A stretch of DNA of 64,000 nucleotides. Source: Membranipora membranacea. Taxonomy: Eukaryota > Bryozoa > Gymnolaemata > Cheilostomatida > Membraniporidae. Shown here piece by piece: positions 18,689-56,472 of this stretch. The DNA lies in the NCBI GenBank assembly GCA_914767715.1, contig OU612069.1, forward strand, positions 16,613,387 through 16,677,386. The letters run 5' to 3'. How positions within the stretch are numbered: the first letter of the stretch is position 1; each line of letters starts with the position of its first letter. The notes under the pieces are model-generated. The model was not told where the DNA came from and ran no database searches. It saw nothing but the letters and a program-made list of their open reading frames with translations. A program made the translations under genes and the position numbers.

Positions 18689-21367
18689 ATGATTGACAAC
18701 GAAGACGACTTACATGAGTTTAAGAGGAATTACTCCTGTAGTGTAGGAGGTAAATACAATCTACAGGTCCAGGTGAAGCACTTGGTACAACTAGCGGATT
18801 TAATTACAAGAAATACCAGAAAACTGATGACTGGACAGATTGTCTCAGAGTAAGTTATAATAAAAGAATAAAGTTATCTGAAGCAAGACAGAAATGTGTT
18901 AGTATAATAAAACTAAGCAGTGCTCCTTAGTCTTACTATTTCTTTTAGCATGTTCCACCCTTAGACCTCAAACCAACACGGCATCCTGAAACCTGTCTTT
19001 TAACAACCAGATATCACGAACCAATACTTTTCGACTTTCACAAAGTAATTGCTTTATGCTTTATGTATATGGTAATTTAGTGCATAATGTAAGAATGATA
19101 TGCTCCTTGATACGTCAACAAAATAACCAACCCAACTTCTGCAGATTTCAACCTAATTATATTAGGACAATTATTGTGTCATTGTACAGGCGCACGCACT
19201 CTTCAACTCTGTATCTGTGAGAAAACCAGGATATGGCGGCTGGAAAGAGAGAGTATCGAGGTTCAGCAGTCATTCTGGAAGGGATCAGCTGTGACCACCT
19301 ATGATCAACAGCAGAAAGTAACTACTGATCTTCTCTGTAATCTACATGAGATACGAGATGAGGTACGAATCAAAAACCAAGCAACTAACAGTCTATCCAT
19401 GCGCTTCAATGTAGGTACAGGAAAACCGACCGGAGATTTGAAGGGACAGCTAGTTGATTCTGCTTCCATTGCCTGTTTTGTAAGACTGTCAGCTTACCTG
19501 TACCATGACTCTCAAGATGACAGAATTTCAACGGCAGAGAAGAAAACAGTAGAAACTACAAATGTAAAAATCTGCACAAAACACCTGGGGATAGATTGTA
19601 CGTCCACACAGGTCTAATCCTGGCGCTAGCTGATTTGATGGTTCCTTTGAAAGGTGAACTAGGAGAAGCAAATGCTGATCAATTAGGTGCTGCATGAGAG
19701 GGCTATCAAACAAAAGCTGACGCAGATGACCAGGCATTCCTATGCAAGATATCAACACTCCAGCATACTGGGCACACATTACAAGCATTCAAATTGCTAA
19801 ATGAGCAAGTCGGGCCGGTTCAGCAGTTAGTCAATGAGGACATTCTAGACTGGTTTGGCAGTCATAGTGCCATCTGTAAACCAGAAATTAAGTATCAGGT
19901 TGCAAATATTTTCATCGATAACTTATACTTTGCGAAAGGGCTGAAACTTCTAAGTCATCTCAAAGAGAATTACAAGGAATACAACAAAATATCGGTTAAT
20001 CATAGGATTGCTACCTGCCAGCGTCATCTGGGAGATCAAACTGCTGCTCTTCACACCCTTCTGGGGAATGTTCATGAAGATTCATCAGGAGAATACTCTC
20101 TTAGCATAGGGCGCTTATATGTTGATTTGAGACAATGTGACAAAGCTGAAGAGTATCTCCTATATGAAGGCATGCCAAGAAGTGAAGTTTGATTATTATG
20201 GTGAACCTATCGGAAGCTCAGAAGCAAGCAACATTTGGAGACACCTACAAAAGTTGACGACTGAGGAAAGACTACTATTTTTACAGCAGCCAACCTCAGC
20301 CTTGTTCGAGTGTATAGAAGCACTGGCGTATTTGTATGATGAACAGTATGACCAGGCCACCTCAGTCGAGTACAGCAGAAATTATCAGAGTATGTTTGAA
20401 CATTTGTATGGAGAGGAGAGTTTAGTACCTGAAGCTGCTCATAGATATTATGTAGTCGGATTGGCCCTCTACAAACAAGAGCATTATGAACAGGCTAAAA
20501 TGAACGTTGAAAAATCAACGGCAACATACTACAGGATTTACAGGAAGATTGTCGATCATCCAAAAGATGCTCTGTTAATACTAATAACCGGCATAAACTA
20601 TTATTGAAATAGGTGATTTATCTGCAGCTGAGGAGTGTATGATTTCATCCCTTGACATGTACAAAAGTATCCACGGTGAAAACAACTTTTGTTCGGACAT
20701 GGCCGATACTGTGAACTACAGAGGATATATAATGGAACTTATGAGGCAGTATGATGCAGCAACAAAATACTACAAATATGCGATAAAAATGTATAAGTGT
20801 GTACATGGTGAGACTAGTGACCATTCAGATACTGCTACAGCACTGAATAGCCTTGGGCTCACTTACTCTAGTATGAGTAAGTATGACAAAGCTGAAGAAT
20901 ACTACAGACTATCACTAGACATGCGTCAGCGTATACATGGTGAGGATCAAGATCATTCTGATATTGCTCAGTTACTGAATAATCCGGGTACCATATTCTA
21001 CGCTATGAATGAGTATAACAAAGCTGCAGAATACCACAGACTACCACTAGAAATGGAAAAGCGTATACATGGTGCGATTGGTGATCATTCTGATATTGCT
21101 GCGTCAATGACAAAACTGGGTACCACATACTATGCATTGAATGAGTTTAACAAAGCTGCAGAATACTACAGACTATGTTTAGCCATGTTTCAGCGTATAC
21201 ATGGTGAGAATAGTGACCATTCTGATATTGTAGTGATAAGGAATAATCTGGTTATCAATGACAAAGAAATGAGAGACAGACGACGAATAATGTTGTCTGA
21301 TCAGCTGAGGGGGTTCCATACATTTACCATATTGTTTTTTGCATCAGAAATACCCTGTACCCAATGA
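18689..21367 (+). pseudogene. TPR gene, at least two exons, frameshifted and truncated
   Basis: Exon 1 (18689-18849) begins MIDNEDDLHEFKRNYS and ends at donor GTAAGT (phase 2). Exon 2 starts at 19230 after AAAACCAG and continues in frame (EIWRLERESIEVQQSFW). It is then broken: TAA at 19615 with the frame resuming as LILALADLMVPLKGELGEA, a TGA near 19695, a shift near 20160 (EEYLLYEG to YGEPIGSSE) and another at 20607. The last piece (20639-21367) holds about five 42-residue TPR units (SLGLTYSSMSKYDKAEEYYR type). The final frame ends inside a micro-palindrome insertion at 21362. The N-terminal region is not recognised. The architecture resembles TPR-bearing STAND/NLR-like proteins, but no NTPase motif is present. 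It is related to the TPR exons at 4.7 and 7.1 kb. Confidence 0.75.
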
Positions 21368-21398
21368 ACTCCCTCTTCCTCGAAGAGGGAGTTCATTG
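21362..21398. mobile_element. 37-bp perfect palindrome micro-insertion
   Basis: Two 17-bp arms (CAATGAACTCCCTCTTC and its reverse complement) surround a 3-nt loop. The heptamer CTGTACC lies directly on both sides (21355-21361 and 21399-21405), i.e. a 7-bp target duplication. The insertion supplies the TGA that ends the TPR frame. Confidence 0.85.
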
Positions 21399-22249
21399 CT
21401 GTACCACATGCTGTTTTTGCTGAGACCAACTATTATCTAAGAATATGGGTATCTCAGAACTTTAAAATGATGCCCTATTGATCCACATTTATTTCATATG
21501 CTCATTTGCGCTTCAAATAAAATACCCACAGGGATAGATAGTTTGTGATATTATAATAATCTTGTGGATAATAGTATGCTGAGACTTTCGTAAACTATTC
21601 TTCACTCGAGCTTCTATCATTACAATTTGTGTGATAGTAAGTATGTCCAGAGCCTTTCCCTATGTTGTTTTATCGTTCAGATGAGTTGTTGTCCTATTCT
21701 TCAGCAACAATTTATCAGAATAGTATGTAAATAATGTGTTCATATATAGCTCTGTCTAGCATAGCAAGAGTCAAGTGCAGCCAGCACCGACCTTAAGCAT
21801 ACTCCTTGCCCACAAAAACACTATATCAATCAATTTGGCAGCAAAGATGATATAGATCACTGTCGTTCTTTAAAGTCAGGTTTATATGGATGTTTATTTT
21901 ACATACTCCAAAAGTCTCCATGATATTCATAGTATAAGATCGGTTTTGATATTGAAATATCATATTGTACATTTATAACTAGTCTTATAACATGACATAA
22001 TAGATGATGTCAATAGTTTCCATACAATATAATGGTGCATTATTGACTGTAGCACAAGAAGGTCAATAAATCACTTCATCTTAAAACAATGTCTAGAGTG
22101 ATTTATACAGAGATAAAGAAATATTATGATGACATTGTGGGCGTGTTACATGATGACTGGGCGAGGGCCTTTTACAGATATTCCATGAGAGTGCGTACTA
22201 TAAGATGTCTATAAGACGGATGGTTACACGACATCTCTTCTACAGTGCG
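21399..22249. other. Between the TPR pseudogene and the 3' end of PCID2
   Basis: AT-rich, with no exon seen. Convergent genes meet here. The 3' UTR of PCID2 probably lies just below 22250. Confidence 0.4.
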
Positions 22250-25200
22250 TTATAGCACTTCTGTGAGAGCAGGGAATGGTTCCTGTTTGCTGACTACGAC
22301 AGTTCTGTGGGCGTGTGAGATGTAGCCTTTGATCTTACCCTGTAACACAGTGAACAAAAATATAAGTTAAAGTTAAAACATAGGTTAACAATCTGTGAAC
22401 CCATAATGTCCTGATGATTAGAAAAATGTTGGGTCGAAATCAGACAGTCATATTACTACTCGCCAACAAATTGGTGGTGAAACATTGGTTCCCGTCAGAT
22501 CACCATAAAAAAAATCAGATATCTATATGAACATGCAAAGCCAGTTTTTTAGTGGCAGCAAAATTGAGTAAGTTGTTTCAGCTGTTACTCTGCTACTACA
22601 GCTAGCAGACCTATAGAAACTCTTAAATCCACTGATCCTGACATGCTCTCTTCAGGTTTTTCAATGTTTTAAGATAATAAAATAATTTTTTGATTATTTT
22701 TCCTTTTGCTGGCACCATTTTTAACAATTAGCCGCTTATTGAGCAACATTATGTAAGGTGCAATATTACCACTGCGATCAACATAAAGAACTCCACTAGA
22801 ATTAACTGTCAAGCCCTTACCACCCAATTTAGTAACTGTAAGTGAAAAATAGGAGGAGGCTGCCACCAAACTAACAGGTTTGTTTTATTATATGAAAAGT
22901 TGATATATTACCCCAGTAAATCAAATACTGTGAGTTCATAGGGCAAATAAAAATTACCAAAAAATGAAAATTGTGGAAAATAGGAATCGGTTTTTTTTTC
23001 AATTATTTTAGCAAGGATTTTCGTGTATCATAGTGGTCAGGGGGAGGCAATAATCACTATGATCCACTATGATCCCAATTTTCAGACTTTGCAGCAGTTT
23101 TACTGCAGTTAGGTTCACAGGCCGTTATATTTCATATGCCTTAATGACTTTTCAGCCTGAGATCTTTAAAACCATACCAAACATGGCCTAGTAGGACTGT
23201 CACTTTAAAATCCCTATATGAGAGAAAAACTGAAACCAAAAGACAATTTTGAGCCTAATGATTACATACCTCATATATAAGATTAGCAATGATACATTCA
23301 GCCTCATCTATATCGATATCTTCATACTTCATAAGCTGTAGAGCTGATAGGAATGAGCTGACTGGTAACTGATGTGTCTTCAGTAATATCCATCTGTAGT
23401 ATAGTCCAGAAATAATAAAAGTGTGGTGATTAAGGTCATTTATCGCTATACGATCTGAAATCCACACCGTTTATCGGATCAACAAAATTCTTTCACTGAC
23501 GTGGCCTAAATTGATATGCGACCAATATTAGATGTTAAAAATTTCGTCTAACATTTTATCAGGTAACTATAACAACAGATTCACAATTTGAGAGACAAAA
23601 TGTGCAGAGTCTCCTATGTTTCCTATGATAGTCAGATGACGTTATGTCTCCTGGCTCAGACGCCTCACAACGTTTTGGATGTATCAATAACATCAAAACA
23701 AATAGTCCCTTTATACGTCATGTTGTATTGATTTGAGGTAATCATCATTTACACTCGCTAACTTACCACTTTTGATAAGGATCTGTTGGGTGGCACTTAA
23801 CGGAGGTTCATGGTTTGCACTGTGTTTGTTTAGCTAACAGACTAACATGGTAATTATGCAGATGCTTAGGTAGGTAGGTAAGCAGCTGAGAGTAATTCTA
23901 AGTATGATTGCGATTGACGTGATCAAGAATGTTGATAGTTAGACAGTTCACTGCAGTTTATTTAGCAGGCCGCGCCATCGCGGTGGCAGTCTCAGTGGAG
24001 TTGAACCACCCTGCTTTGTGAAATAAAGACAGAGCATGCTCAAATTATTGTTTAGGGAGTTGTTGATATACATGTGGTTGCTGATGGCGAAGAGAACAAA
24101 AGCATGATTGATGAAGACTATTGAGGTTCAAGGTTGCAGCCAAGTGCATTATATTTTCTGGTAGAGTTGAGAGGATGTGAGGACGAGTGCCATGCAGAGT
24201 GTTAGAAAAGAATACAAAGGAATGACAGAAATAAAACTGAAAAAAAATCAGAAATAAGGAGTGTTGCTTGATTGCATGAGTGAAAAAAAATCTACTTATA
24301 ATTCCACTCAACATAATATGGTCGAGCACCAGAAATAGACATAAGTGGATAAGCCAATTCTGGCAGTATAGCTTGATAGTAGAATCGTCTGAGCTTTGGT
24401 AAAATATGAGTAAGAAAGAAATGTTTATCAAAAGTGATCCATACAACAGCCATACTGAGCTTGGCTCCTCTAATTACAAAGGCTGCATTCGGAAGCTCAG
24501 TGGCAGCCATCACACCTTGTACCTGGTAGTAGAAGGAATGGGAAGTTTTGAGAGCATAGTTACCATTCTCATCTAAACCCAAAGGAAAATCCTTTACTTT
24601 AGTCCTGATAGCATCATCTACTGTCAGCCCAGCGTCAGCCAGTTTTTTTGGGTTTTTGTATTCAACCACAAAAGATGCTGGTATACTGGCTTTACTTGGC
24701 TGACAGCAGAATATACCATCAGGAGAGGCCCCGAAAACATTCTCATCGGGTAACAAAACTAACCCGGGATGGCTTACAGAAATCTCGTCACAACCATTGA
24801 TTTTTAACCAATCTACAAACATTTTGCTGTAGCAGCATTCCCTGTAAAGGATGGATATAGCAGGTTTTGAATTGTATTTTTAGGAGAGGTCTTTGATCTC
24901 ATTTTACATATCTGTCCATAGTTGCTCGCAGTGAGTCTCATTCTTCTAGCCGCTTTCCATTGTGGAGTGCCTTGCTCCGCGCTGATGGAAGAAGGCATTG
25001 TCAGTAAAAATTCAGTCATCAGCTCCTCGAGCTTATCCTGCTTTATATCAGCATCTCGAGCTGCCACTTGACCATATACATCATCTTAAAAAGCATTCAT
25101 ATCAAGCGTCTCAGAAATTATAGTTAGTATAAGCAAGCAAACAGCAAGCATGCAGTGTGCAAAATAATTCAGATGAGAAGGATTGAATGGGAATCGTGTT

Positions 25201-28200
25201 CCTCCGCAAAAAGAGAAGACAACAGATAAAAAGGGGATGCTTCCCAGTATTGGGATATATAATATTTGTTGCAAACTGATCAAGCATGTCAGATAGATGT
25301 GCTCAGCAGAAAAGAGAAGCTAGCAAGGTATTATTAGCCTTTGACAATTGAGCTCTGCGGTATAGATAAAATGTGTACAGCATGAGGTAGAGCAAGTAAG
25401 TGAATGGGTGTGTGTTTAGAATATGCGTTAGAGGGTGACTCTGATGTTTTAAGGCAGACTAACAGACATTTCCTATGTGATTTTGAGACAAGTTGAAAGG
25501 CTTGTGGAAATATGAAGTGTCATGATTATGTGGGACTCACCAACAGCTGATTTAGGCAGTCGTTTTTTACTTCTGTTGCCTTTTGATTCTGCCGTCTTTG
25601 ATTTTGTTCTATTATAGGCCACCTGCCTTTCCTCCTGATCAAAAAGCTTTTCTGAATTAACACAGTGAGTCAGAAATCTTCCACTCCACTTAGGGCCATC
25701 ATTGTAGCGAAGTGCTGCAGCTATAATACAGAGAAACAGTCCTTCAACGCAACATCATTGTCACAAAAATAACTAATTGCGACATATAAGTGGAAATACA
25801 CGTAGCTCTATTGATAGTTTGTTACTCCAATAATTTTGATAACAAAACATACCGTGACACCTTGCTGACCAAGATCCAGATTTTCCTCTGTCAGTGTGTT
25901 TGTTTCCGTCCATGACGCGCCGGATGTTCATGTAGGTTTCAGCTGCATTACTCGTCATATTTTCAGCTATATATGGAATGTCAGCCATCCTCTGGAGTAT
26001 CAGCTGGAATATGAATTTTAGTCGTAACATAAGAATCCCACAACTTGACCCGGTAGATTCCTGAAACTTTGGAATTAATAATGGTGTTTTCGGATTGAAA
26101 TAATTACCCTATAGGAGTTTAATTTAGCTAGAGTTTAATTTCGGACCTGGATCTGGACCTGGTACTAAATTTCACTAGTACTAAATTTCGCTAGTAGGCT
26201 TACTTGTGAAAATTAAAAAAAAATGTCCAAGCTGGGATTCGAACCCAGGGCATAAATCTCCATCTGATTGCAAGGCAGGCACTGAGACCACTACACCACG
26301 CTAGCTTGCATTTTTGGATAAGGTGTATTCCTGTATAATTGTACATTGTTTATGAAACTATGGTGAGTGAGTTTAATTTAAGATACACTAAATTTCGCAA
26401 ACTAGGCAAAAACGCGAAAAGCGAATCCTAAATGCCGCGAAAACTAAACTACTATAGGGTAGATATTGTAGAAGAGTTGGAAAAAATCCGATGATTATGC
26501 ATTTAGTAAGCTTATTTTATGAAAGGTGTAAAGTTAAGGTTTTACAGCTTATCTGACACAGCCTTCCTGCATTTCAGGTAGATAATAATATTTCACCTTT
26601 ATCTTGTTGTATGTCTCCAAAGACCACGGGAGCACCCCCTCTGTCCCAGCATGCTTGCATTTCCACTCAGGTGAATACGATGAGTGGTCTCCCCCTACAT
26701 GATTGATGGTGTTCAGTATAGCTACTCGGGTCTGTTCTTCAGGTAGATGCATGTTTAGAACATGTTTTACACTATATGTTACCTTTGTAACATGCTCTTT
26801 CGTTAGTAGTCTGTCTGTTTTTCTCAATTCTTCTAGATGTTTTCTTACATTCTTTGCTGCGTGGTTGCTGCAAGGTATCTTTCGTACGCTAGTACCATAG
26901 GAAACCTTAAACATATAATAACAATAACAATGAAGTCAATGACAAAGTAAAAGTAAAGACATTAATTATATGGTAAATTAAATATGCATATATATACATA
27001 GGTTTGAATCGTACCATCAGAAATTCAACCTCAACTAGTCATACACTATGGATAATGGGTAAATTCAGTATTTAACACCTTTTTTCACAACATATATCAT
27101 GTTATGTTAGTGATAGAAATACAATCTATCAATCAATCATTGGAGGAGGGGCTTGGCCAGAGTGTTTGAGATGAACAGATTTGATTCGGTAAGGATTAGA
27201 AGAAATAATTTGAGCTCACATTACAAATGATGCTGTCTGCTACCGTGGAGTCACCATCGCCAACATATTCTAGATAGTAACATTGATGAGCTGTCATCGC
27301 CTTCTCAAATCCTTCCACCAATCCCTTAGACTCCATGCTCCCTGAGCTTCCTTGGTGATTTTTGTGGCATTCATGTAATTTGTTGGGGCTTACCGTGCAC
27401 ATTTGGCACGAACTGTTCTTCGGTATCACCTGTAGTACCTTATTCGTCTCGCTTCCGATAATGACAGCTACACCTGTAACAATAACATAATCAATTATAG
27501 TTGTCCACTCAAGATTATTATAAGATGTACTTGTATATTAAACAAATTTCAGAGACTCATCAAGTAACTCTATCAGCATTTCAGAAAAATAGGATCACAC
27601 TTGAAACAAATGAATAAGGTAAACCTTGCAAGCATAAATAAGATTTTGAATAATTTTTGTCTTTTATTTTCATTGCATACTTATACACTTTTACTAACCT
27701 GACGACGACGTGTAATTGTGGCCATGGGATTGTTTCTGCCAGCCTGCATCCACTATCACCCTGATCCACGGCAGTCCATGAAAAAATCGCCATTTCTTTC
27801 TTGCTATTTCTTTTTCAGCCTCATGAGCAGCTTTAGATTCCACTAGCCATTCTGCCTCGATAGACCTACCAGCTGTTTTTTCTTCAGCACTGAAGCTATT
27901 AGGCCGATACGCTAGAAGAAATAACATGAGTGTTACCGTAACCTAAGAAATAGGCATTAAATTGATCAGTAATTGGGTTCTAGACTAGATAATTGTATTA
28001 GTTAAAAGAATTTAAACGCTAAATCTGGTGTACTTATACAACCGTTCATAGTCATTCAAATAATCTGTGTAACTTACTGGGTAAATTCATGTTTGCCATG
28101 AGCTTGTTAAAAGGTCTTGCCCCAACACCTGCTGATATCGCCCGATGACAGCCTCTTTCTGTAGATTCTACAATAACCGAGGAACCCAGAATAATAGAAG

Positions 28201-34200: not shown

Positions 34201-37200
34201 AGTGAGAATTTATCTTTGATAGGAAGACTATCTATAGCCCTGGTGAGAGGTTTACACAGATGTAGCTTGTTTATCTAAAAGTAGAGCAAAGATTGTTCAT
34301 AACTCCATACATACAATAATGTACAGTATCAGGAAGCACTGGACTAGTAAAATTATAATAGACTAATAGCCTCAAATCGATGTGTGATGGGACTGCAGAA
34401 ATTACGTATATGAAACTGTCATGCCTGTAGGGAAACAGTCTACGCGCTCAGACTGCAAATATAGTATAGACCACTTGTGATACCCTGTTATCAAAGGTGC
34501 CGCTATCTAGACACAATCCCGAGTCTAAACAATTAAACTTGAGACTATGTAGACATATATATGTAGCCCATCAGCTTGTGTCAATAATATTTATATTACA
34601 TATACGGATGATTAGAGACTATGAAATGTGTACAAATGTAGCATTGCTTGTTATCCACTTTCATATGAGATATCTGGAAGAAAATGGCATCATATATACA
34701 TGTATAGAAAAGTAATTCATCAATTTTGACCAATTACATATCTCGACTCAACTGTGATGGGTGTAGTGTGAGTATGCTTACCCTGAAGTAAATCTTGAAG
34801 AGTTGGTTTACAAGATTCAACATTCCCCACTTTTTAGAGTTTGCTGGTGCAGATCGGCTGTAAAAAACAAACAAAGTTATGTATGTAATCATCTAAACTG
34901 AATTTACAAGATATTGAAGTTATCCTACATCAGTTAGGTTTCCATCGCTAGCAAATTGGGAAAATTAGAGTATACTATCAGGGACAACCATAGACATAAA
35001 AATGCTGTGTATATTCATGGGGTAAGCTATATTATCTATATTTGAAGTTGTCTATACTTGAAGCTACCTTTCTATGCTCGCTATATAGGCCTAATCCTCA
35101 GCCAATATTGATATCAGCTGCCTGCTATATATATTTGATTCTACCCAAATATTGATATTCAATAAGTTTGATGATCAGCCTGTTAACAGGTAGAGTAGGT
35201 TAAGTAAACATAGATGAAAAACCAATTACAACCGATGCCAATACCCAAATACCTTATGCACTGACGATTAGACCCAATTTACATCAGTGCCTTCATACTA
35301 CCAATTCAAAGAAATATTGTAACACTGACTTCTCACCATGTCGGGCTGGAACAAGTTGGATCCAGTTTACCTGCATACTAGTTGCTCTCCCTCCACTAGT
35401 CACCCCAGTGGCTGGCGGGGTGACGAGTGGAGGGGGAGCAACTCCGAATGCAGATAACTGGATAAGACTTTGTCTAACCAATGAGGGAGTTCATTGGTCT
35501 AATGTCTGGCAATTGATGCTCCATCCAGCAGGTATCATATTTTATCTGCACTAAGGTTGTAAAACTGACCTGTCACTAGCACAAACCCTGAAGCAGGCCA
35601 TCAGACCATCAGCTGCTTTCTCCAACATCTCACCTTTCTTAGATGTGTGAAACTTACGAGCTCTCTGTGTCTCTGCCTGAAAGATACAGATTAAATTAAA
35701 CTTTATTTAATAGAAATATAAAATTCATCTGATTCAATGCCAATGGAATTTAATGCACTCTGTCAATTTCATTTGCAGAATGATTCATAGTATCCAATAT
35801 CACCGGTATGGCCATATATATCCATGTGTTGGCAAAAGATGCTATGGCCTTCCCCTCAGCTTACTTTAGGCTATGATCTATTGACATGTACATTGAAAGC
35901 TTGTTTTATAAAGCTATGTGGGAATGGGAGTGTAATTCAGGTAAACTTATAAAAATACTGAAGATGAAGATCAAGTATTATTAATTTTGCCGGGATTGAG
36001 GTGCTCTGCTTCTAAGGGTGCACGGATATATCAGAATAGGGGAAGCATATCAGTTTGAGATAACTATTATCAACATTGGTTTGACGCACAAAGGAGTAGT
36101 TTTCCATTGTTGATAGACTTGGAATGATCCGCTTGAAAAAAAGCCCAGAAATGATATAACTAAGGAAATTTCATATAACAGCATCATAATCAGGCAATGA
36201 TGCATTTCACAGCAGGTATGAGCACTCACCGACAAGGCAAATAGCCTGAGATCAATACACAGAACGAACATGATAGGTAGAGCCCAGTTCTCATCCTTCA
36301 TCGCCTGCATAGCCTTCGAGAATGCTGTCACAGCCGCTGCCTGACATCCGAAAGCTTCAATAAAGTTGTGATTACTAACCGCCCATAGAGCTCTAAAAAT
36401 CAAAATGAAAACACTCGCATGAGAATGTAACTCCAAATAATGACAACTTTATAAAAAAAAAAGCCAGGAAGACAGCAGCAGCCAAGTTACTACATCTATG
36501 AATGAGTGAGCAATTCTTTGCAGTAACTTATAAAATTGCCAGAAGGAACAGGTCTAAGTAGTATGACAGCAGGTGCATATGACTGAAACCCAGGCACTCT
36601 CAGCCATATTGAGACCTGATGTAAATAGTATTATAGTTGAGTGCAGAATCTGCTAATCTGTGAACCAATTTTATCGGGCAAACAGTATGTCAAATCAAGT
36701 TTATCTCAGTGTATTTCTAAGCGAAATCCTCCAAACCAGTCCCACCCCTTGTCAATGTGTTGTCACTGATTGGCTGTTGTGTGGGTATGAGAGCCAATGC
36801 CAGGTCACTGAATGTACCCGTCGACATATAGTGAATGTAAAACTGAGTACTTTCACTTCATCTTGATAGGTACTTTCTAACCAGTAGCAACAGGCTTTGC
36901 TCTAACAACCCTCAGCCAATCAAAGCCCAGCCCAAACCCTCCTCACAAGACACAAAATGAAGCAAACTATGTTGATATATGATTTAATTTCTGACTAAGC
37001 AACAGACAGAGATACTTACAGAGTAAATATTTAGCCTGACCTTATGTGAGCAGCTACTATCTCATCCCAGGGCTGTCTGAGGATCTGTTCACATTTCTGT
37101 TCAGGATTCTGTAGCTGTAGTCGAGGGTTGTTGATGTGTGGATGTTTGAACGATAGCAAAGGCTAAAGAAACAGAAAAGATTAGAGAATTAGCGAACCGG

Positions 37201-44476: not shown

Positions 44477-44592
44477 TAGGCCAAGTTTAATCCGATTGCC
44501 TGCATTCCAGTTGCTCCTTTCCACTGGTCACGCCTCAAGCCAGACCAGACCAATGCAATTCAAATGCAGGTAAATGGACCAATCTTGGTCTA
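44477..44592. mobile_element. MITE family A copy with 9-bp target duplication
   Basis: The ends TAGGCCAAG and CTTGGTCTA pair. GGTAAGTGA flanks it exactly (44468-44476 and 44593-44601). Inside: TTGCCTGCATTCCAGTTGCT, CCACTGGTCACGCC. It sits 64 bp upstream of the exon with motif I (44288-44413), inside the intron. Confidence 0.82.
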
Positions 44593-45161: not shown

Positions 45162-45290
45162 TTTTCACGAAAATCAATGGTAGACGATGGCTCTAATGAT
45201 TTGTTGGCCGTTAATCAATTAAACATTCCGGGGTCAAAGATATCGGTATCACCATCACAAGACTCGGTTTTTAAGAGTCGGCAGGGACTG
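45162..45290 (-). pseudogene. Exon-like block with in-frame TGA inside an ERCC6L-like intron
   Basis: The minus strand has acceptor TTCTACCACAG, a protein-like reading LPTDSPCRLLKTESCDGDTD then IFDPGMFN, TGA, LTANKSLEPSSTIDFRENRN, and donor GTATGT. Its phases (2 in, 0 out) do not fit the flanking exons, which join each other directly in phase 0. Probably a relic or cryptic exon. Confidence 0.35.
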
Positions 45291-45409
45291 TCAGTGGGAA
45301 GGCTGTGGTAGAATGGACAGTGCATAACTAAACTAAATGCCTTCCAAAGCAATTTAATATCTTGTTAGAGCCGCCCACATACATTAACGACGGTTGAGTC
45401 AAGAGGGAC

Positions 45410-45650
45410 TTGGATTAAAGATTTGAAAGTCAATAAAACTGCTGCAAAGTCTGAAAATTGGGATCATAGTGGATCATAGTGATCTATTGCCTCCTCCTAA
45501 CCACTATGATCCTTGCTGAAATATTTAAAAAAAACTAATAGCTATTTTCAACAATTTTTTATTGTTTATTATTTTCATTTGCCCTATGAACTCACAATAT
45601 CCGATTTACCGGGGTCCACTTTTCTAATAGGACTGACCCTTTAATTTGGG
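45410..45650 (+). repeat. Dispersed repeat family B, copy 2
   Basis: Inverted relative to 22905-23215. Shared words: AAAACTGCTGCAAAGTCTG, GGATCATAGTGGATCATAGT, TTTGCCCTATGAACTCAC and TAGGACTGACCCTTTAA. Confidence 0.65.
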
Positions 45651-47914
45651 CAGTAAAACTTGGTCTTTCATCAGTAGAATAATGCTATAATTTATCAGCA
45701 CGCTTCTTCTTAGCATCTCACCTGTTGCAGACCTAACAGAACCCCTCACTCCTAGACATCGATATAAGTTGAGGTTCCACTGAGGAAATGGCACTTATTT
45801 ATTATCATGTATGCATTCATTATCTTACCTCATGGAGATAGAATCCATTACCAACATGAGTAAACTCGGATGAATGATCTTCCTCATTCGCCTCTATGTA
45901 GTCCTGTAATATTGGAAAAATGTGGTAAAGTTTGTCATTGAAGGAAACGCATACAACCAGAGTGAAATCAATTAGGGATGCCCCTTAATGACAGAAGTTA
46001 GCAAGTGTGCTTTACTGTAACCGGTGAGATCGATGATAGCTGTGAATTGGTTTGGACAAGCAGGTTCACTACTGCTACAATTTGTGGGTTAAGGCTATCG
46101 AGTACAGCAGTCCAAAGTGAGGACTCCTATTTGCAGGCAAACACATCTAAATTAACCTTTGTCTATATTCAAGGTATTTTATTGCAAGGACTGATAATTA
46201 AAAGGACATACTAGACAAAATTATCAGCACGTATTCCATCATCTCAATCACACATACACACATACCTTGCACTTTTGTATTTTCTTGGAAAGTTTATCGG
46301 ATGATTTGATGAGAGCTGCCTCCTGTAGGACTTGTAGAGCTTGTTTAACTTCTCTATTAGATATCAGCTCCTTACCTCTCAGTACCAGCTCGTTATATCT
46401 CTCATTCTTATCATCTGTGAGCGGAGAAAAGAAAAATCAATAATATGAATTAACACTGATATTCAGGGTGCTCAAGATTTGATGGTCTAGCATGAGAGGG
46501 TGAATACTAAGAAATAGATTCACTGAGGGGGTTGGAACAATCAAACTCCCTAATGGAAACAAACTATTTATATATCAGTAATTTGAAACTAGAATCAGGT
46601 TGACTGATTTGACCTATTAAAATTTCCAGTATACGGGTGCGTTACAATGTCATTTGGCTTACATACACGGACAGTTAAGAGTTTAGAGTTTTTGTATTTC
46701 CCATCAAAGTACTACTAATGTATAAGCGATAGCATCTTGGGAATTCTGGTGTGGCGGATAAATTATTTACTTGAGGCGACCAGGACAGCATACTCACATG
46801 TTACAGGTGGAGCACTTTCACCCTCCGACTTCATTTCAATCTGCTGTGAACCATGACTAGATTCCTCGGTATTTGCCTCCCCTGCTTGCTGTTTCTTTTT
46901 CTGCTGCTCTATATACAGCTGTATTCTGTCCATTTTTCTTTTCAGTTTATCGTTAGGTTTGACTCCATATGCATCCTCGTACAGACTCAAAGCCTCCTGT
47001 AAAAGATTATTTAGAGATACAAACCTGTTTACACATATTGATATTGCAGTGATTCCGTTTGATCTACAAATCAGGGAAATTTTTAATTGAAGAGGCCTTA
47101 GATGAGATTTTTAACTAAAATATACAAGATGTGGTAACAGATTTTGGAGAAAAAACAAAGAGTACAGCAATGATAATACAGAGTGATGAATACCACCATT
47201 CAATTCCTAGATAAATGTCGATTTCGAGTTTGAATCAATCAACATAGCAAGGAACATGAGAATTGATAGCAACTAGGAGGAAACTTCGGAGTCGTTCTCC
47301 CATTTTCAAAGTAGTACAATGAGAAGATAACTCGTATTTTCAAACATATAAGCAGTGAATTTTGGGAGATATTCCAACTCCTGCATCCAGGAATGGTGGG
47401 TCTTGCTCTTATGGTGTCCACATGACTGTTATAGATGAAAGATTGTGAAAGATAACTGTGAAATCTTGATATTTTCTTTCAAAAGCCAGCCCAATTGTAT
47501 TGAGTAACCTACCTGTAATTTTTCCTGCTCAATCAGTTTTTTCCCTCTACTGACAAGTTCGTTATAGTGAGCCTCTATAGCTGAGTCGTCTGGACTGTTA
47601 TGTTCTCCAGGAGGCGGGGGTGTGCTTTCTCTCTCTACTGTGACAGCTGTAGGACTTGCTGGGGGCTGAAGCTCATTGACATATGTCTTCAAGAATCAGG
47701 CAAATTGTAACTTTTTATAAAAAAAGCCTGGGACCGGCCAAGAAAATTGTCACCGTGTTTAAAGACGGCTTGAACTAGACAACCTTTCACAAGTGCATAT
47801 GAGTATCATCTTGCCAACGTGATGGCACTGAATGGCTGGCATGAGTGACCGACCCAACAGCTTACATCGGCTTATTATCATAAAAACAATTAACAACTAC
47901 AAATTTAGATGAAC

Positions 47915-48003
47915 TTTGCTCAAGTTTGCATGCGATCCAGCTGGTCTCATCCACTGAGGAGGTTATCATTGGAGGGGGAGCAACTCTGCATGCAGGCAAA
48001 CTA
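47915..48003. mobile_element. MITE family A copy, partial
   Basis: GTTTGCATGCGATCCAG, GGAGGGGGAGCAACTCTGCA and TGCAGGCAAACTAGATG match the family. It lies in an intron of the ERCC6L-like gene. Confidence 0.6.
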
Positions 48004-49477
48004 GATGATGCAAAGAATTAACAATTACAATATGAGAGATAGAGCAAAGCAAACCTTGATTTTGGTGATTTTCTCTTTTAGTTTATCTGATGGATGAAGG
48101 AGACAGGCCTGCTCATACATAGACAGCGCCTCAGCAAACTCTCCGTTTCTCACCAAACCTGCAATAAAGGGTAAAATATCATCTTGACTAAGCATTTGAT
48201 AGCACCAAAAATATAAACTTGTCCAGGTGGTGTAAGCCTTACTCGCATTACTTACGGTGCACTTGACTGCATTTACATGAAAGAGATTCCATACATAGAC
48301 GCACATTGTTGAATAATACTCATATAATATGACCATGAGATAGGAGAAAGGGCGGCGAGCAATATCATCACACAAAAACATTTCAGTAGGATATAAACGG
48401 CAAGTCAAACTGAACACCCATAAGAAAGTTGGTGTTTAGAGTGAGTAGATTGGTAATAACTTTATAAGGTAAACTCACTCTTTGCTTGTGAGAGAAGACT
48501 GTTGTAGATAGCGATATCCTCCTCTGACAGGTTAGCCTGAGCACCAGGAGTGGACACACTGTTATACCTGTTACTGCTGGGCGTCTGCGCCACCCCCATA
48601 CCGTTAACTGTGGGTGGCTGTTCTTGTGGAGGACTAGGCTGTTCTGAGTCTTCACTTAATTCGGGCTCATCATATGACATGCTAGAATAGTGGAATTGTT
48701 TGCAATGTGATTAAGTTTTGGCATCATCTAAAGACTCTCCATCAAACGATGAACTGTGAAAGCCTAATTACAGCCAAGTGCCAACCACTCTACAAACTAG
48801 TATTAATTTGGACTTGCAATGATATGGTATAAACAAGTCACATGTACTGCCAAAATAACAAGTAATGGTCAGTAACTGGTGACATAGTCTTTAAGATCAT
48901 TATTCCAATTTGGAGTGATAGTCTGTCGTAGTAGTTCAGACGATTATGTTCAACATTAAACATTAACCCAATGCGTGATATCGTTGAGTGTCCAATTTAA
49001 ACTTCGGCCATGAGGTATATTTAACCGCCAGCAAAGGCAATATCTCATATTCAAATAATATACAATTCTAACTTCCACAGTATGTAGAGGACTTAGAGCG
49101 GGCCGATCCCAAAGGAATCCAGCACAAAATTATTCCTAGTATTGGCTCCTACCATAGAGTTATCATACATGTACTATTATATAATAGCCCTATGGCTCCG
49201 ACCAATTTTAGAATATTAAACTCTATTCTCAACTCTGTATAAATACCTTTCTGTTTCCACATTAGGCGACGGACCTGTCTCCATTTCTTTGTCTTCTTGT
49301 TGTTGTGGGTCATCAGTCTCTATGGTCTCTGGGGATGCTGTGTCTGCAGCAAGACTATTTGTATCATCTGGTAGAGGGATTCCCTTATCTGTTAGGAAAT
49401 TCTGTAATAGAAAAGTTGTTATGAGATGAAAACGAAGGTGGGGTATAAGCACACACTGACATCCAGAATATGCTATT

Positions 49478-49640
49478 TGATGTAGAGTAGATGTAGAGTA
49501 GATGTAGAGTAGATGTAGAGTAGATGTAGAGTAGATGTAGAGTAGATGTAGAGTAGATGTAGAGTAGATGTAGAGTAGATGTAGAGTAGATGTAGAGTAG
49601 ATGTAGAGTAGATGTAGAGTAGATGTAGAGTAGATATAGA
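49478..49640. repeat. 11-bp minisatellite TAGATGTAGAG
   Basis: About 14 nearly perfect copies of an 11-bp unit in an ERCC6L-like intron. The minus frame STSTLHLLYIY is a repeat artefact. Confidence 0.95.
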
Positions 49641-51867
49641 GTACCTAACGTGCTTCAACTACTAAATTTTTGAGTCACATAGATTCACGCTCTATCGTTC
49701 AGAGACATACATATGCGAGTAATAGTTGACTCAGTGGTTAAACTATTGAAGTTGAGTTTTCTCTACTTTTTGAGGTGAGTAAGCCTCTAAAACCCTCTTT
49801 CTGTACCTATTATCCTGCTGCACGCATGCAATGAGAGCCTGGAACAGACAGAGCCTGCAAAAAGTCCCTCGTCTGTGACGATTTCACCAACCAATATGAC
49901 AAGATCATGGGATCATGGATGGGACACTCTAATTCCATGACAATAGTGTAAAGTTGTGTATTGATTAGCAAAATTGGACTTCAGGAATATTGATATCGAA
50001 AAATCTATTATATAACATCGTTGGCTCACTACCAAATGTACACTAAGCAAAGTAGATATTGATAGTTTTTAATCAGGAGATAATTTATTGTTTATCATCC
50101 GCTAGACAGTGAGGGATACTCGATTAGCTGTGTTACAAACCTTGAATCTATCGATTCTTCTCTCCAGTTTCTCACTGGGCTCCAGTTTATTTGCCTTCTG
50201 ATAACATCTTAGTGCTAGCAGCACATTGTCATTACCGACAAACTCTTTAGCTGCCTTTAGAAGTGAGGCTAAATCATCGGGTAAATCGTCTGCTGGTGTT
50301 TCATCTACAATATCGAGTGAAAATAAAAAATGAATTGAAGTAGTCATAGCTGTAGGCAGCAAGCTAGATAGGCTAAGATATTATTTGCGCTAGAGAAAGT
50401 GGGCGATTTATCATCAGATAAAAGCTGTGACGACTATTTAGCATTGGGTCCTGTAATGTCAAGGTTATGCAACCATTATCTTTGATGGGTACAGAGATAT
50501 AATACTCACAGACATAAAAGGGCACACATATGCAACACAGTCATTGAAATGGAGAAAGTCATCCACTCTTGAGCGCAGGTACTGCGACCCGCAGTTCTTA
50601 CACCCGTCCCTATACTCATTTATCTAAGAGGCAGTGAGGGACCTTTTGATTGTATGTGAGATGTCCGACACACTGAAGAGATTTGGTATTATTCATCTTG
50701 TTCCTCAAGGACATGGCTATGATGAATGGTGCGCAATTACCAGGTCAGGTTATTGCTGGAGAGTGGAATCAGGAATCCCTACCTCAAATATCGAATCTTT
50801 ATACCCTCAACCAATAACCACTCCTGATTCACATATACACCGACATATGTACCTGTAGTTAATAGGTTATCATCTAGAGATAGATGGGTAGGAATGAGAC
50901 ACTACACTACAATCTCACCTGCATCATGCTCTGCTCCATCAGGCTCAGTATTTGTCTCTTTAGCGCCATGGTCTGTTGGGGTTGTATTCTCCTTGTCCGC
51001 ATCATCTGTGTCAATTTCAGCAACCTACAAATCAAGTAAAACAAATCAAGTGATACTGTAAGAGCGTTATTTGACTCGGAATCTGATAATTATCTTGTGC
51101 TGACTACCGCTTGTGTACCCTAGAGAAGTAAATTTTAGCTAGAGTTAAGTTTAGCTTGTGAAGGGGTGACTCTATGTGAGCTAGCACTGAATTCAGCTAG
51201 CTGAGGTTAAAGTCTATATGAAGTAAAGAGAGTCAGTAAATGTTACTAAATCTCCTTCCTCCTACCTTAGCTAGCTAAAGTTTGTGCTAGCTGACATAAA
51301 TATCGCCACTCAGGTAGCTAATATTTAATCCTCCATGACTAAAACAAAACGTCTTGTACTAACCTTCATTTCTGCTTGTTCTGATTGCCATGACTCTAGC
51401 CCTGGTGACCGCCTCTTCTCCTCATGTTTGATTGGGGTGTGAGGGCTGGGCCTCTTATTATCAGATCCTGTACTCAGTACTGTCAGTGTGGAACTCGAGC
51501 TAGTGTCCACTGTTAGGTTATCATCTGTTGATAAGTTCAGAGCCCTCTATAACAAGGAAAGAGAATATATGTAATAAGTCTACTTATGTGAAATTACAAG
51601 GATGTGGTCATCCAATTACAGTGTCTTCAAGACATCACAGACATTCTCGAAATTCCCAACATGTTAGAAAATTTTTTTCAGATACATTAAGACATTTATT
51701 GTAAGTGTACACATTTAGCTGCACAGTTTAACATAGATTGTTAGCTCTCCTATATAAGACCGCGACATTCTGATATAATTCTGTGATAATGAAGGAGGAG
51801 CAACTTCGGGGATAGCAAGACATATTTGTTCACCACATCCCAAAGAATGGACATGTGTTAGTGGTTG

Positions 51868-51990
51868 CCTTCAGACTTCTGTTTGTAGGCAGGTTGAGCA
51901 CACTTGGGGGCCAAGCAAACCCCAGACTTCAGTTGATTGAAGCAGGATTTAAACCCAGGACCCAATCATCTGGGCCTTCTCTTGCTTCTA
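51868..51990 (-). repeat. tRNA-derived SINE, copy 2
   Basis: The minus strand contains GGTCCTGGGTTTAAATCCTG (B-box-like), TCAATCAACTGAAGTCTGGG, CCCAAGTGTGCTCAACCTGC and CAGAAGTCTGAAGGCAACC, colinear with the body of copy 1 at 31975-32137. It has a weaker tRNA head and is in an ERCC6L-like intron. Confidence 0.7.
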
Positions 51991-52023
51991 AGGGGAGACA
52001 AAATTTTGATGGACACTAACATA

Positions 52024-52202
52024 TAGCCAATGCGTTGGCTCTGATCTGATTGACCGGGAGCCAAGTCACTGAAATTATCTATCGAGATATAGTGAAAGTG
52101 AATTTCTTTCACATTCACAATAGATCATCCAGGAAAGTACCATCTGACCTGGCATTGGCTCACCGCCTCTTGCACACTCAATCAGAGTCAACGCATTGGC
52201 TA
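52024..52202. mobile_element. 179-bp MITE-like inverted repeat
   Basis: The ends TAGCCAATGCGTTGGCTCTG and its near complement (CAGAGTCAACGCATTGGCTA) pair. The inside shares CAGGTCACTG/GAGATATAGTGAA-type words with 36790-36865 and 57341-57400, so it belongs to a dispersed family. Confidence 0.65.
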
Positions 52203-52889
52203 GCTCAAATGCGGCTTCAAGGTGACATGTTAGCGATCATATGTTAAACTATCTCACCACCATAATTATCGACCTACTATTAGGCCTACAGACTCACCAA
52301 GAGTTTGGAGATTCTGTTGTCTAGCTTTTCACTAGGGTAAATCTTACGAGCTCTCTGATATAAGAGTAGAGCCTCCTGCTGTTCTCCTTGATTTAACCGT
52401 TTCTTAGCTGTGAGAACACACTTGTTAAACTCTTTCATCTCCGCCTCAGAGATGGCCGGGCCGGCACCTGAATAAAAAAAGACGGATAGTCGTAAGTGAG
52501 AAGAACCAATTACTAACCCACAGACAGACAGGCTAGGCTTAATTTTCAATTTCCAAAGTTTCAAAAACCATTACTATCCTATGTTTTGAACTCTAGGCAC
52601 TAGACAAGGTGGCCAAGCTTGAATATAAAAAGAAATGTGATACTGTCCTGTGGTAACCAGCTATACATATAGGGGATTTTGCAGAATATCAAAGCCATGG
52701 CACTACCGAAAATGATTTCAACTTCATTAGGAATAAAGGTTGTTAGGCTGTTAGATCTGTCAGAGAAATACATGATATTTTTTTCCCTGCCAATCTATCA
52801 CAGACGGAGAAATGCAGAACTTGAGCATAAAAGACTATGAAGACATGGAAAAAACACAACTTACCATCAGATCCAGCGCTGGATGGCAT

Positions 52890-53264
52890 CTTGTTTAATG
52901 GGTTTGGGAAGTTTAGGCCATGATCTGTGCAACGATGTCTGCAATAATATACTCAAGTAAGACCACCATTTGTAGAAACTGCAAAAAAGCATTACATACA
53001 TCTATCACCATAGTCGAATTTTGGAATGAACGTCGACTGGAACGAATGTCGACGGGATCGAGCGTAGCTGCAATGAATCTCGAAAATCCCGGGATGAACG
53101 TATAAAGTGCTTGATTGAACGCTGACTACATAATTTAGTATATAGAATCAATGGGAATAAAACTCCCAAAAATTATTGAGTAAATCAAAGTTAAGTTATT
53201 CTGTAATGTACACACAGTGAGAGTGCCAATTGTGAGAGTCAATTGAGTATGAGCACCTTCTGTA

Positions 53265-53295
<31 letters not shown>

Positions 53296-53592
53296 ATATG
53301 GGTACAGTAAATCACTACAAACTGCGCAGGCCTAATTATCCATGCAACCAACTGTTGTGCTTAAGCCTGGTCTCAAGTAACTTCTTTGAGGTCTACTATT
53401 ATACCAGGGGAATCTCCCTGATTATACCTAGGAGTAACAGTTATGTGAAAATATAATATATATATATGACAAGTTATACCTTATCAAAAAGTAATAACCA
53501 CAATGAAATAATACCACTCTACTGTACCAACACATAAACCTGATTTCATATACTCACACTGCCTCTCAAATTCTTCATCAACAAAGGCAGCT
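52890..53592. other. Upstream of the ERCC6L-like start, AT microsatellite
   Basis: The promoter region of the ERCC6L-like gene should lie here; no TATA box or clear core element was seen. It holds an (AT)n run at about 53264-53291. No gene. Confidence 0.45.
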
Positions 53593-53600
53593 GGATAGAG

Positions 53601-54260
53601 CAACGAGTTAAAGTGTGTCTTTAAAGACTTTGTTTGAGGCTGCTCTTTTGTATCACATCTTATTCTCCATATTTTATTCTATCATGTGAGCGATTTTCAG
53701 CTTTATAATCCAAATATTGAGGAAGTTATGGCCTCTCAAACTTCCAAGGTGACGGCAATTTATCGGCAGTAAGAATCAGCCGGCAATCCCTAGGGTACGT
53801 CACTAATATTGATGATCAAATGTTCAAATCTGTAACGGTCTCAAACCCAGGTCCAAATGGCTTTGCAGGCGACGCCGCTAATACTGAGCTATATTGTCTA
53901 CTGGCTAACCTAGTTGGTCCAAGTGGCGTGATGGTAGCGTCATTGCCTATAGGTAATGGGACCTGGGTTCGATTCCCACCCAGGTCTGAATTTTGATCAT
54001 CATCTTATCTGTGTGATTATTAGTGTATTAACTAATAACTCATAATGTCTATGCCACATGCCTGTGGTTGTGACATACCCCAGGGGAAACATCCGCTTAT
54101 TCCCAATGCCGATTGAAGGCAATCACCTTGGAAGTTTGAGAGGCCATAACTTCCTCAATATGTGGATTATAAAGCTGAAAATCGCTCACGTGATAGAATA
54201 AAATATGGAAATAAGATGTGATACAAAAGAGCAGCCTCAAACAAAGTCTTTTAACTCCTT
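53601..54260. mobile_element. 660-bp hAT-like MITE with 8-bp duplication and tRNA-like insert
   Basis: Arms of about 160 bp pair (AAAGACTTTGTTTGAGGCTG ... CAGCCTCAAACAAAGTCTTT; AGCTTTATAATCCA; ATTGAGGAAGTTATGGCCTC). GGATAGAG flanks both sides (53593-53600, 54261-54268), extendable to 9 bp with a leading T on the right. The centre contains a tRNA-like sequence at 53918-53987. Confidence 0.8.
53918..53987 (+). repeat. tRNA-like sequence inside the MITE
   Basis: A-box-like TGGCGTGATGG, a short stem ATTGCC/TATA/GGTAAT in the anticodon position, and the T arm CTGGG/TTCGATT/CCCA with the B box GGTTCGATTCC. The 4-nt anticodon loop rules out a functional tRNA. Probably a SINE head or captured pseudo-tRNA. 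Confidence 0.55.
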
Positions 54261-54550
54261 GGATAGAGTAATGATCTAGCTAGTTAATGCAGGAACAAAA
54301 TGAGGGCAGTCTTGCTAACTTCATAATCAGTGAGTATCAGTATCAGTATCATTCTGATATCAATAATGAAGTAGGCCTAAGCAAGAGTTAGCAACTTCAG
54401 GAATTCCTCCCACTAGCTAGATAGAATGGTTGGTGGTTAGATTTGAATAACAATCCATGATAAACACAATACTAAATGAAGCTATGGATAGGTAATGTGA
54501 GAGTTTTCTTAATTTACCACCTAGTCTTATGTGAGAGAATATGAGTCTAG

Positions 54551-54658
54551 CATGGGCCCCTGGGACTTGCATGTCTTTACTTTGCCAATGTCCACTATCA
54601 TGGGTGGTTGATAGTGGACATTGGCAAAGTAAAGACATGCAAGTCCCAGGGGCCCATG
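54551..54658. mobile_element. 108-bp near-perfect palindromic MITE (family C)
   Basis: The arms CATGGGCCCCTGGGACTTGC ... TTTGCCAATGTCCACTATCA fold back fully. An 8-bp duplication GAGTCTAG flanks it (54543-54550, 54659-54666). The same ends bound the 1.1-kb element at 56121-57233. Confidence 0.92.
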
Positions 54659-54799
54659 GAGTCTAGGTATAACCAAGGAGTAACAGGGTTACTCCTTGGT
54701 ATAACACATTGGAGGATGAAAATTCAAAATTTTCTGGCAGTGGTAGCAAAAACAAAAAATGTGTCACAGTTTCATAAAGCAGGGATAAAGGGATTATCC

Positions 54800-54916
54800 C
54801 AGAGGTCTACTACAAAACCTGGGATTTTGGCAATGTTTGACTGCCCCCCAAAATAGCAAAAACTCAAGGGGGCAGCCAAACATTGCCGAAATCCCAGGTT
54901 TTGGAGTAGACCTGTG
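54800..54916. mobile_element. 117-bp hAT-type MITE, ends CAGAGGTCTACT/AGTAGACCTGTG
   Basis: Long inverted arms (AAAACCTGGGATTT, GGCAATGTTTG, CTGCCCCC and complements) with an 8-bp duplication GATTATCC (54792-54799, 54917-54924). The CA-G-G-type ends and 8-bp duplication fit the hAT superfamily. A left-end fragment of the family is at about 38117. Confidence 0.88.
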
Positions 54917-54924
54917 GATTATCC

Positions 54925-56112
54925 AATTGGATATATGAGAGGTTAATCTAAAGTTAGAAAACTTACTTTACAAAATAAAGTACACCTATGCTGTAGTATG
55001 TTGGATAGGCCCTGGGGGCCGATGTCAGGGAGACATGCCCCAATGAGAGTTGTGTAACAAAAGGCCTTTTGTTTGGTGAACAAAGGAGTACAATGGCAGG
55101 CAAAGTGTGCTTGTCTGAATGCATGTTGGATTCATGTGATTGCATGCTGGGGCGCATGTATGCTAGGCTCAGCTCTCTACTTTTGCTACACTCATTTGTG
55201 GGTATACACAATCCACCCGCTGCTACGATATGTAGGAACCACTGGTAAAGGGTATTTCACAACTGTACTTCATTTTGTAATGTATTTTTTATTTCAGTTA
55301 CCTAATTTCTAGGAAACCATCTACCTACTATTAGAACCGAAAAGATGTGAACTTTCAGAATCTTCAATCAGATTGGTTAAAACATGAGCAGAAGTCATCC
55401 TAGTATTGGCTAGATTGATTGACTGAATGATAGTTTGATAAATTGAAAATTTTGAAGCTCGATTTCTGATCATCATAGTCATAACCATATATGCATATGG
55501 TTACTACTATAGTTACTATGGTACATTTTGCCGAAGGGCCCGACACCTTTTGGCTCTTATTTCAAATCAATTTGAGCAAGGAATTCAACATATACTTTGT
55601 TAGAAAGCTCACATGATTCTGTACAAGATGGAAAAAGAATCTAAATTTTTTTTGTTTCCTACTTATCAATCCCTGCTTTCTGAGACTAGGACACAAATTA
55701 CAAATTCAACACTTCCCGCCCATTCTGCTTGCAGGCTAGACTTGAGACATAGTCTATGCCTCAACAGTTCGCACATGCGCAGACTGCTTCCCGCCAGATT
55801 TTCTGAAAATGATAAAACTCGGTCAAGCAAAACATTGATGTCTTCATTTTATTCTAATTATCATCAATATTTATTTGAAGAGTCCTTGTTTTGAAACGAA
55901 ACTGCATTGCTAAATAAAAATCACACCCAGATTTTATTTTTGCCAGCTAGGAGAGAGAGGGAGAGAGTACAAGTGAAATGACAACCAATTCAATTCTACT
56001 GTGAGAATATTAGCCTCTCGTTTTATTATGTGGAATGATTTGGGTCTACTTCAATGTCTAGTCAAACAATTTGAAGACACTCTCCTCATCATGCCACCAA
56101 CTCCTTGATGCC
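54925..56112. other. No gene recognised
   Basis: Open frames at 54963-55312 and 55613-55894 have no motif, splice context or counterpart I recognise. Confidence 0.4.
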
Positions 56113-56251
56113 ACGAGGCTCATGGGCCCCTCCCCCTGGGACTTGCATGTCTTTACTTTGCCAATGTCCACTATCAACCATCGAAAAAACACCAAACAGG
56201 GTAAGACACAAAATTCTTTTTGTTTACAACCTACCTTGAAATCTCTCACAC

Positions 56252-56272
56252 CAATGAACTCCCTCTTCATTG
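56252..56272. mobile_element. 21-bp micro-palindrome insertion
   Basis: CAATGAACTCCCTC followed by TTCATTG, flanked by CTCACAC on both sides (56245-56251, 56273-56279). The opposite arm of the foldback element (57100-57120) reads GTTAGTGTGAGAGATTTCG with no insertion. Confidence 0.9.
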
Positions 56273-56283
56273 CTCACACTAAC

Positions 56284-56308
56284 CAATGAACTCCCTCAGA
56301 GTTCATTG
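56284..56308. mobile_element. 25-bp micro-palindrome insertion
   Basis: CAATGAACTC / CCTCA / GAGTTCATTG, flanked by CACTAAC on both sides (56277-56283, 56309-56315). Removing it and the previous insert with one duplication copy each restores the sequence of the opposite arm exactly at this site. Confidence 0.9.
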
Positions 56309-56472
56309 CACTAACTCACTCATCCTTCCTCTTTCATTTGCTTCAGGTTTGAAGTTTCTAGCACAAACAGAGCTGACTTCATGGACCAGAGAAAAAAATA
56401 CTTCTACAAAATTCACAAAAATCCTGAGTAGGCTGAAATGGCTGCATGAGTATTGACATCCCTGTTGAACCC

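Follow-up and report, generated by a model that had tools for sequence, protein, structure and literature searches.

Excision of the P element of Drosophila is the closest described counterpart of the sequences considered here. Its transposase is reported to cut 17 nt inside the terminal inverted repeat (TIR) and to leave 17-nt 3' overhangs (PMC7776569; PMC2895639), and the repaired sites, products of polymerase-theta end joining, carry an 8-bp duplication, partial TIRs, microhomology and templated filler (PMC2895639; PMC7776569). Galileo, a Drosophila element of the P superfamily, is described with a 7-bp target-site duplication (TSD), 8 bp in three copies, and the target consensus GTANTAC (PMC4168063; PMC2775673). 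In this study, we analyze a stretch of 64,000 nucleotides from the bryozoan Membranipora membranacea (GenBank assembly GCA_914767715.1, contig OU612069.1, positions 16,613,387 to 16,677,386 of the forward strand), hereafter called the window, in which four palindromes stand between 7-bp direct repeats. We propose, at a probability of about 0.72, that these palindromes are excision scars of a P-superfamily-like transposon, a placement argued from the behavior of the family; that they are scars of some cut-and-paste transposon is very probable. The palindromes, their repeats and related features lie in the window as follows (no strand is assigned unless given).

21355..21361, 7-bp target duplication CTGTACC; second copy at 21399-21405, exact
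21362..21398, putative excision scar of 37 bp; left TIR 20 nt plus right TIR 17 nt, without filler
35472..35478, 7-bp target duplication GTCTAAC; second copy at 35497-35503 is GTCTAAT, one mismatch
35479..35496, putative excision scar of 18 bp; CAAT+GA+GGGAGTTCATTG, as expected of a join at the 2-bp microhomology GA
56245..56251, 7-bp target duplication CTCACAC; second copy at 56273-56279, exact
56252..56272, putative excision scar of 21 bp; reverse complement of the common 21-mer, with the 3-bp microhomology GAA/TTC
56277..56283, 7-bp target duplication CACTAAC; second copy at 56309-56315, exact; 3-bp overlap with the target of the neighboring scar
56284..56308, putative excision scar of 25 bp; left TIR 14 nt, then A, then right TIR 10 nt
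57020..57230, minus strand, empty site for the putative scars at 56252 and 56284, in the opposite arm of the host foldback element
6202..6215, plus strand, lone right-end 14-mer

The initial annotation had described the four palindromes from the letters of the window, and their coordinates, ends and variable length (18, 21, 25 and 37 bp) are present as it gave them, with the 7-bp repeats exact in three and one mismatch in the repeat at 35479. It had also taken the opposite arm of the host as an empty site for the last two palindromes, and this reading holds: the host is a larger hairpin element at 56121-57233, and its opposite arm, read on the minus strand from 57230 to 57020, contains CTCTCACACTAACTCAC without interruption, which is exactly the sequence left after removing each insert plus one heptamer. 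The pattern CAATGA(N4-30)TCATTG has seven matches in the window, whereas 100 shuffled versions of it average 0.39; four of these matches are the palindromes of this family and the other three, at 15553, 38624 and 38634, fall outside it. The 14-mer at 6202-6215 is the fifth exact 14-nt end in the window, stands without a left partner or a flush repeat, and would represent a decayed or deleted scar.

Some further features lie close to these palindromes. The hairpin elements at 54551-54658 and 56121-57233 have CATGGGCCCC ends and 8-bp repeats (GAGTCTAG and ACGAGGCT, respectively), and between the foldback arms, at 56470-56640, a short AACGTCGCAA-type motif is present in many copies. An imperfect palindrome, AGTTGCTCTCCCTCCACT...AGTGGAGGGGGAGCAACT, occupies 35380-35443, immediately before the 35479 palindrome.

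Across the genome (339 Mb in 18 contigs), the 14-nt end GAGGGAGTTCATTG has 2190 exact copies and the same pattern read backwards has one, which bears out the expectation of wide occurrence; 1913 of the places have CAAT no more than 30 nt upstream, a number that includes palindromes, double choices and element ends. Among 73 distinct palindromes from fetched loci and the window, selected by an exact 14-mer and a CAATGA no more than 60 nt away (if there was a choice of CAATGA, preference went to the one giving the better repeat), a flush 7-bp repeat is exact in 50, has one mismatch in 10 and two to six mismatches in 13. Exact flush repeats of 5, 6, 8, 9 or 10 bp are found in none of the 73, and when flanks were swapped between palindromes the 7 bp matched in 12 of 5256 combinations; the repeats are thus beyond chance, as the annotation had supposed. 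In a set taken without the CAATGA requirement, in which some palindromes are counted on both strands, 53 of 75 repeats are exact, eight have one mismatch and 14 are absent. One scar (locus L028) lies inside a repeat, at least four other copies of which, about 80% identical, are continuous without the scar, with one mismatch in the heptamer. Two loci show more complex arrangements: at L020 (about 1494-1567) two scars stand around copies of the heptamer GTCTGAG, as repeated use of one target, and at L081 (5946-5993) a scar is nested in an apparent older scar.

It seems that the palindromes derive from a much longer transposon. The extended 20-nt end is present at 165 places, and the listed places pair head to head, mostly 860-892 bp apart and in some cases at other lengths. 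Nine loci that were read contain a sequence of about 0.9 kb with the TIR CAATGAACTCCCTCTTCCTCAGGAATAACAACA. Ten end pairs in these loci have an exact 7-bp TSD in seven cases and one mismatch in two, with no 8-bp TSD; the tenth pair, from a nested locus, uses another left end. Allowing up to two mismatches, the TIR measures 35 bp in eight of the ten pairs, 27 bp in one and 174 bp in one nested pair, and in an 892-bp copy it is exact over 33 bp. This copy, used as query, gave at least 115 matches, many of them single TIRs (40 of 154 candidates scored), and at least 24 copies span all 892 bp, those other than the query being 91-97% identical. Its longest reading frame has 97 codons between stops, and the family is therefore taken as non-autonomous. 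Variant ends of a CTT type occur at 85 places and suggest a second parent subfamily, which was not found. A candidate larger element has long-TIR ends 5163 bp apart (G000:C4:21953135-21958297); its middle 1 kb, the part that was read, contained no transposase domain. The ends of the palindromes therefore belong to a longer conserved element: they correspond to at most the outermost 20 nt of the 33-bp TIR in the ~0.9-kb transposon. The initial annotation had named such an outcome as one that would overturn its own proposal.

The extent to which the TIR is kept distinguishes scars from miniature elements. Genome sequence directly shows the parent family with its TIR and TSD, the limit of retention, the types of joint and the counts. 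From 76 scars with at least 16 nt of TIR on each side, 38 were scored, giving 76 ends, of which 69 stop at 16-20 nt. The seven longer than 20 nt include four from one 39-mer whose sides overlap ambiguously. The share of ends whose match extends by another base drops from 0.89 at 16 nt to 0.33 at 20 nt, where chance would give about 0.25, and each side of a palindrome keeps about 20 nt of TIR or less. A TIR stretch of at least 26 nt (no more than one mismatch) is present at 113 ends. In the 100 listed, among them every one of the 69 exact ends, convergent pairs are never less than 541 bp apart; complete TIRs at both ends of short palindromes, the mark of a miniature inverted-repeat transposable element (MITE), were thus absent from these 100 ends. 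Miniature elements would keep full TIRs, and the retention of about 20 nt therefore favors scars, which fit the data better. The ~0.9-kb parent resembles MITEs in being a short non-autonomous TIR element; the short palindromes differ from them in lacking the full TIR and in looking like repair products.

The joints between the two TIR remnants are varied. Typing of 66 places (70 listed, with four nested or very long ones excluded) distinguished 53 joints up to strand. Five are TIR-variant joints, and the other 48 have no filler (20), 1-3 nt (15) or at least 4 nt (13), none of the 13 longer fillers recurring. Between two 20-nt overhangs the only 3-bp microhomology is GAA/TTC, and the product predicted from it is the 21-mer, which is also the commonest exact product found, with 367 exact copies in the genome. 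In a position-ordered sample (83 places typed, nine set aside as parent ends, leaving 74), which requires CAAT plus the 14-mer and hence excludes shorter products, the 21-mer is the mode at 18 places, 19 being of that length, and the 18-mer expected from the 2-bp GA join is found at eight.

From these features we infer staggered cleavage by a P-type transposase followed by end joining. A P-superfamily-like element would duplicate a palindromic 7-bp target on insertion, and on excision its transposase would cleave one strand at the border of the element and the opposite strand some 20 nt into the TIR, leaving each donor flank with a 3' overhang of about 20 nt of TIR. Because such overhangs would be identical rather than complementary, their repair would involve trimming, annealing through short microhomologies, in some cases extension templated by nearby sequence, and sealing. 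The predicted product is a TSD, up to 20 nt of TIR, in some cases filler, up to 20 nt of TIR and the second TSD, and the palindrome would measure about 18-50 bp; pairing of TTC in one overhang with GAA in the other would give the common 21-mer. The idea of staggered breaks in the initial annotation came close as regards the breaks, and the capture of hairpins that it attached to them finds no support.

Several properties point to the P superfamily. The duplications are of 7 bp (exact in 50 of 73 palindromes, with none of 8 bp), within the 7 or 8 bp of the superfamily, and they stand on both sides of partial TIRs joined through microhomology or filler, as in P-type footprints. A palindromic target preference is also apparent: T at position 2 together with A at position 6 of the TSD is found in 26 of 48 scar TSDs and in 10 of 16 TSDs of other palindromes, against a background of 9.4%. 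The length of the TIR is close to the ~30 bp of the superfamily, a weak mark given that TIR length varies within it; the P element itself has 31 bp and the parent here 33 bp. Drosophila P footprints share with the palindromes the TSD on both sides, facing partial TIRs, joins at microhomology, templated filler and a palindromic look; they differ in a TSD of 8 rather than 7 bp, and they come from one laboratory locus, whereas the palindromes here are spread over a great many sites in a single genome and apparently stem from several families. Galileo, as described in the text available, shares the 7-bp TSD, the palindromic target, many non-autonomous copies and foldback-like long TIRs (compare 53601-54261 of the window, below), and differs in TIR sequence and, relative to the ~0.9-kb family, in TIR length; excision scars are not mentioned in that text. 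P-type RNase H domains gave at least 134 matches in the genome (150 of 211 candidates scored), and two P-type genes that were read both have THAP and RNase H domains and a complete or partial GTP-binding domain. These two genes were rejected as autonomous copies; neither bears the ends of this family. A near coincidence of a P-type gene with a scar at 17.82 Mb of contig C1 was likewise rejected, the nested scar lying about 5 kb away.

It is conceivable, if unlikely, that the scars belong to a different superfamily from P, one with a transposase that likewise cleaves well within the TIR. No transposase gene is tied to the 100 of 113 listed long-TIR ends or to the 85 variant ends, and the middle 1 kb of the 5.2-kb end pair yielded no transposase domain, both of which such an origin would accommodate. 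Against it stand the palindromic 7-bp target, like that of Galileo, the TIR length near the 31 bp of P and the P-like footprints, together with the abundance of P-type transposase domains in the genome.

A still smaller chance attaches to self-mobile ultrashort elements, that is, palindromes of 18-40 bp cut and pasted by a transposase acting in trans, with the 21-mer as the most successful. The initial annotation had thought along these lines, treating the palindromes as elements of that size, either minimal transposase substrates or captured hairpins. The 367 identical 21-mers are indeed scattered, and those read have mostly different 7-bp repeats. However, the TIR is kept to about 20 nt and not to 33, the joints are highly varied and partly filled, no longer filler recurs, and the 21-mer is predicted from repair alone by its microhomology; a transposase synapse on 21 bp would moreover seem sterically hard. 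Shrinkage of ordinary elements in situ by replication slippage or hairpin deletion, without excision, is very unlikely: foldback-prone sequences do delete, target duplications would remain intact and one pair of 14-mers lies 313 bp apart, but such decay would give varied internal ends, often with full TIRs, whereas no convergent pair under 541 bp was found among the listed ends of at least 26 nt and retention fades near 20 nt.

A number of observations weigh against excision scars of a P-like transposon. Firstly, regarding the joints, the 24-mer predicted by a 2-bp join at full overhang is found at none of the 74 places, a 31-mer join without microhomology recurs at seven of the 66 places, four of them within 0.4 Mb, and some TIR-variant joints are found at two places each. 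Secondly, regarding retention, five of the 100 listed long-TIR ends are scars of 39 or 46 bp that match through self-complementarity and one mismatch, and one pair of bare 14-mers is only 313 bp apart (C1:5516427-5516739) and may be a shortened element; the limit of about 20 nt also exceeds the 17 nt reported for Drosophila P. Thirdly, regarding the target, the two TSD copies differ at two or more positions in 13 of the 73 palindromes, seven of the first 29 distinct places taken without the CAATGA requirement lack a repeat even if one mismatch is allowed, and the T2 plus A6 preference is weak in full-length elements alone (two of seven). Moreover, the search for an autonomous copy yielded none: among P-type domains (150 of 211 candidates scored), the nearest lies 12 kb from any of the 100 (of 113) long-TIR ends listed, and for the 85 variant ends the distance is 16 kb. 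Finally, CAATGA(N31-61)TCATTG also exceeds its reversed control (3750 vs 760), and the six-letter ends are therefore weak evidence and the total of scars uncertain. An estimate of about 6800 scars from six-letter counts (7620 vs 807) was dropped; the longer-gap count and the hexamer base counts indicate that the control underestimates the background.

Other families may have left similar traces. A blind scan for inserts with arms of at least 6 nt and flush repeats of 5-10 bp was run over 189,577 unique letters of flanks taken around known scars. Among CA...TG inserts without the GAGGGAG core, 15 have a 7-bp repeat, one an 8-bp, one a 5-bp and none a 6-bp repeat; other inserts without this core have repeats of 5 bp (11), 6 bp (four), 7 bp (one), 8 bp (one) and 9 bp (two). 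Ten Markov controls gave no CA...TG insert with a 7-bp repeat. The 15 palindromes comprise seven that start with CAAGG, four that start with CAATGAACT and then A or T, and three of other types; the remaining one, at locus L024, may be a degraded member of the main family. Extrapolation from 15 perfect non-family palindromes per 190 kb of flanks would give about 27,000 in 339 Mb if the flanks are representative, a density that may be biased upward. We put at about even the chances that tens of thousands of fixed scars in this one genome go back to several families of the P superfamily that target 7 bp and make a staggered cut of about 20 nt. Two features of the window are relevant here.

54674..54698, no strand, scar-like palindrome of a second family, CAAGGAGTAACAGGGTTACTCCTTG (CAAGGAGT...ACTCCTTG); 7-bp duplication GTATAAC at 54667-54673 and 54699-54705
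53601..54261, no strand, 661-bp long-TIR (foldback-like) element with ends CAACGAGTTAAA / CAAGGAGTTAAA; 7-bp repeat GATAGAG

The 661-bp element lies 413 bp before the palindrome at 54674-54698 and has like ends, which makes it a candidate for the parent type of the second family. In the sequence read, longer TIR elements with CA...TG ends have repeats of 7 bp in three cases (one of them a pair of scars), 8 bp in seven, 5 bp in three and 6 bp in three; given this spread, the 7-bp repeat of the 661-bp element is by itself weak evidence.

Elsewhere in the window, a palindrome CATAGACATA...TGTCTATG with the flush 8-bp repeat GAAATCCA lies at 6863-6896, and ARAGORN, under bacterial settings, called a tRNA-Gly (gcc) at 26224-26311. 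Rfam gave no match at gathering scores in the window. Six open reading frames of at least 150 amino acids are present, two with TPR, one zinc-knuckle/PNMA-like and three without a family.

Taken as a whole, the palindromes are most likely repair scars rather than ultrashort mobile elements of a new class, and clustered tiny palindromes with target duplications need not mean a new element class. Literature searches limited to open PMC papers listed none with a title or abstract opening on a genome-wide set of P-type scars; a listed paper on DNA transposon activity in rice (PMC4423477) may be relevant to the excision sites of other transposons. The M. membranacea genome appears to hold thousands of such scars, a natural record of past jumps and of break repair. 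Scars of this kind make the genome a record of former transposon sites and of how they were mended, with many natural repeats of the same break, and the position of the cut, the repair pathway and the ratio of excision to survival of a transposon family become measurable in a non-model genome. If several families did contribute, scars would by number rank with the commonest dispersed sequences of this genome and would preserve, in readable form, the outcomes of end joining at a defined break.

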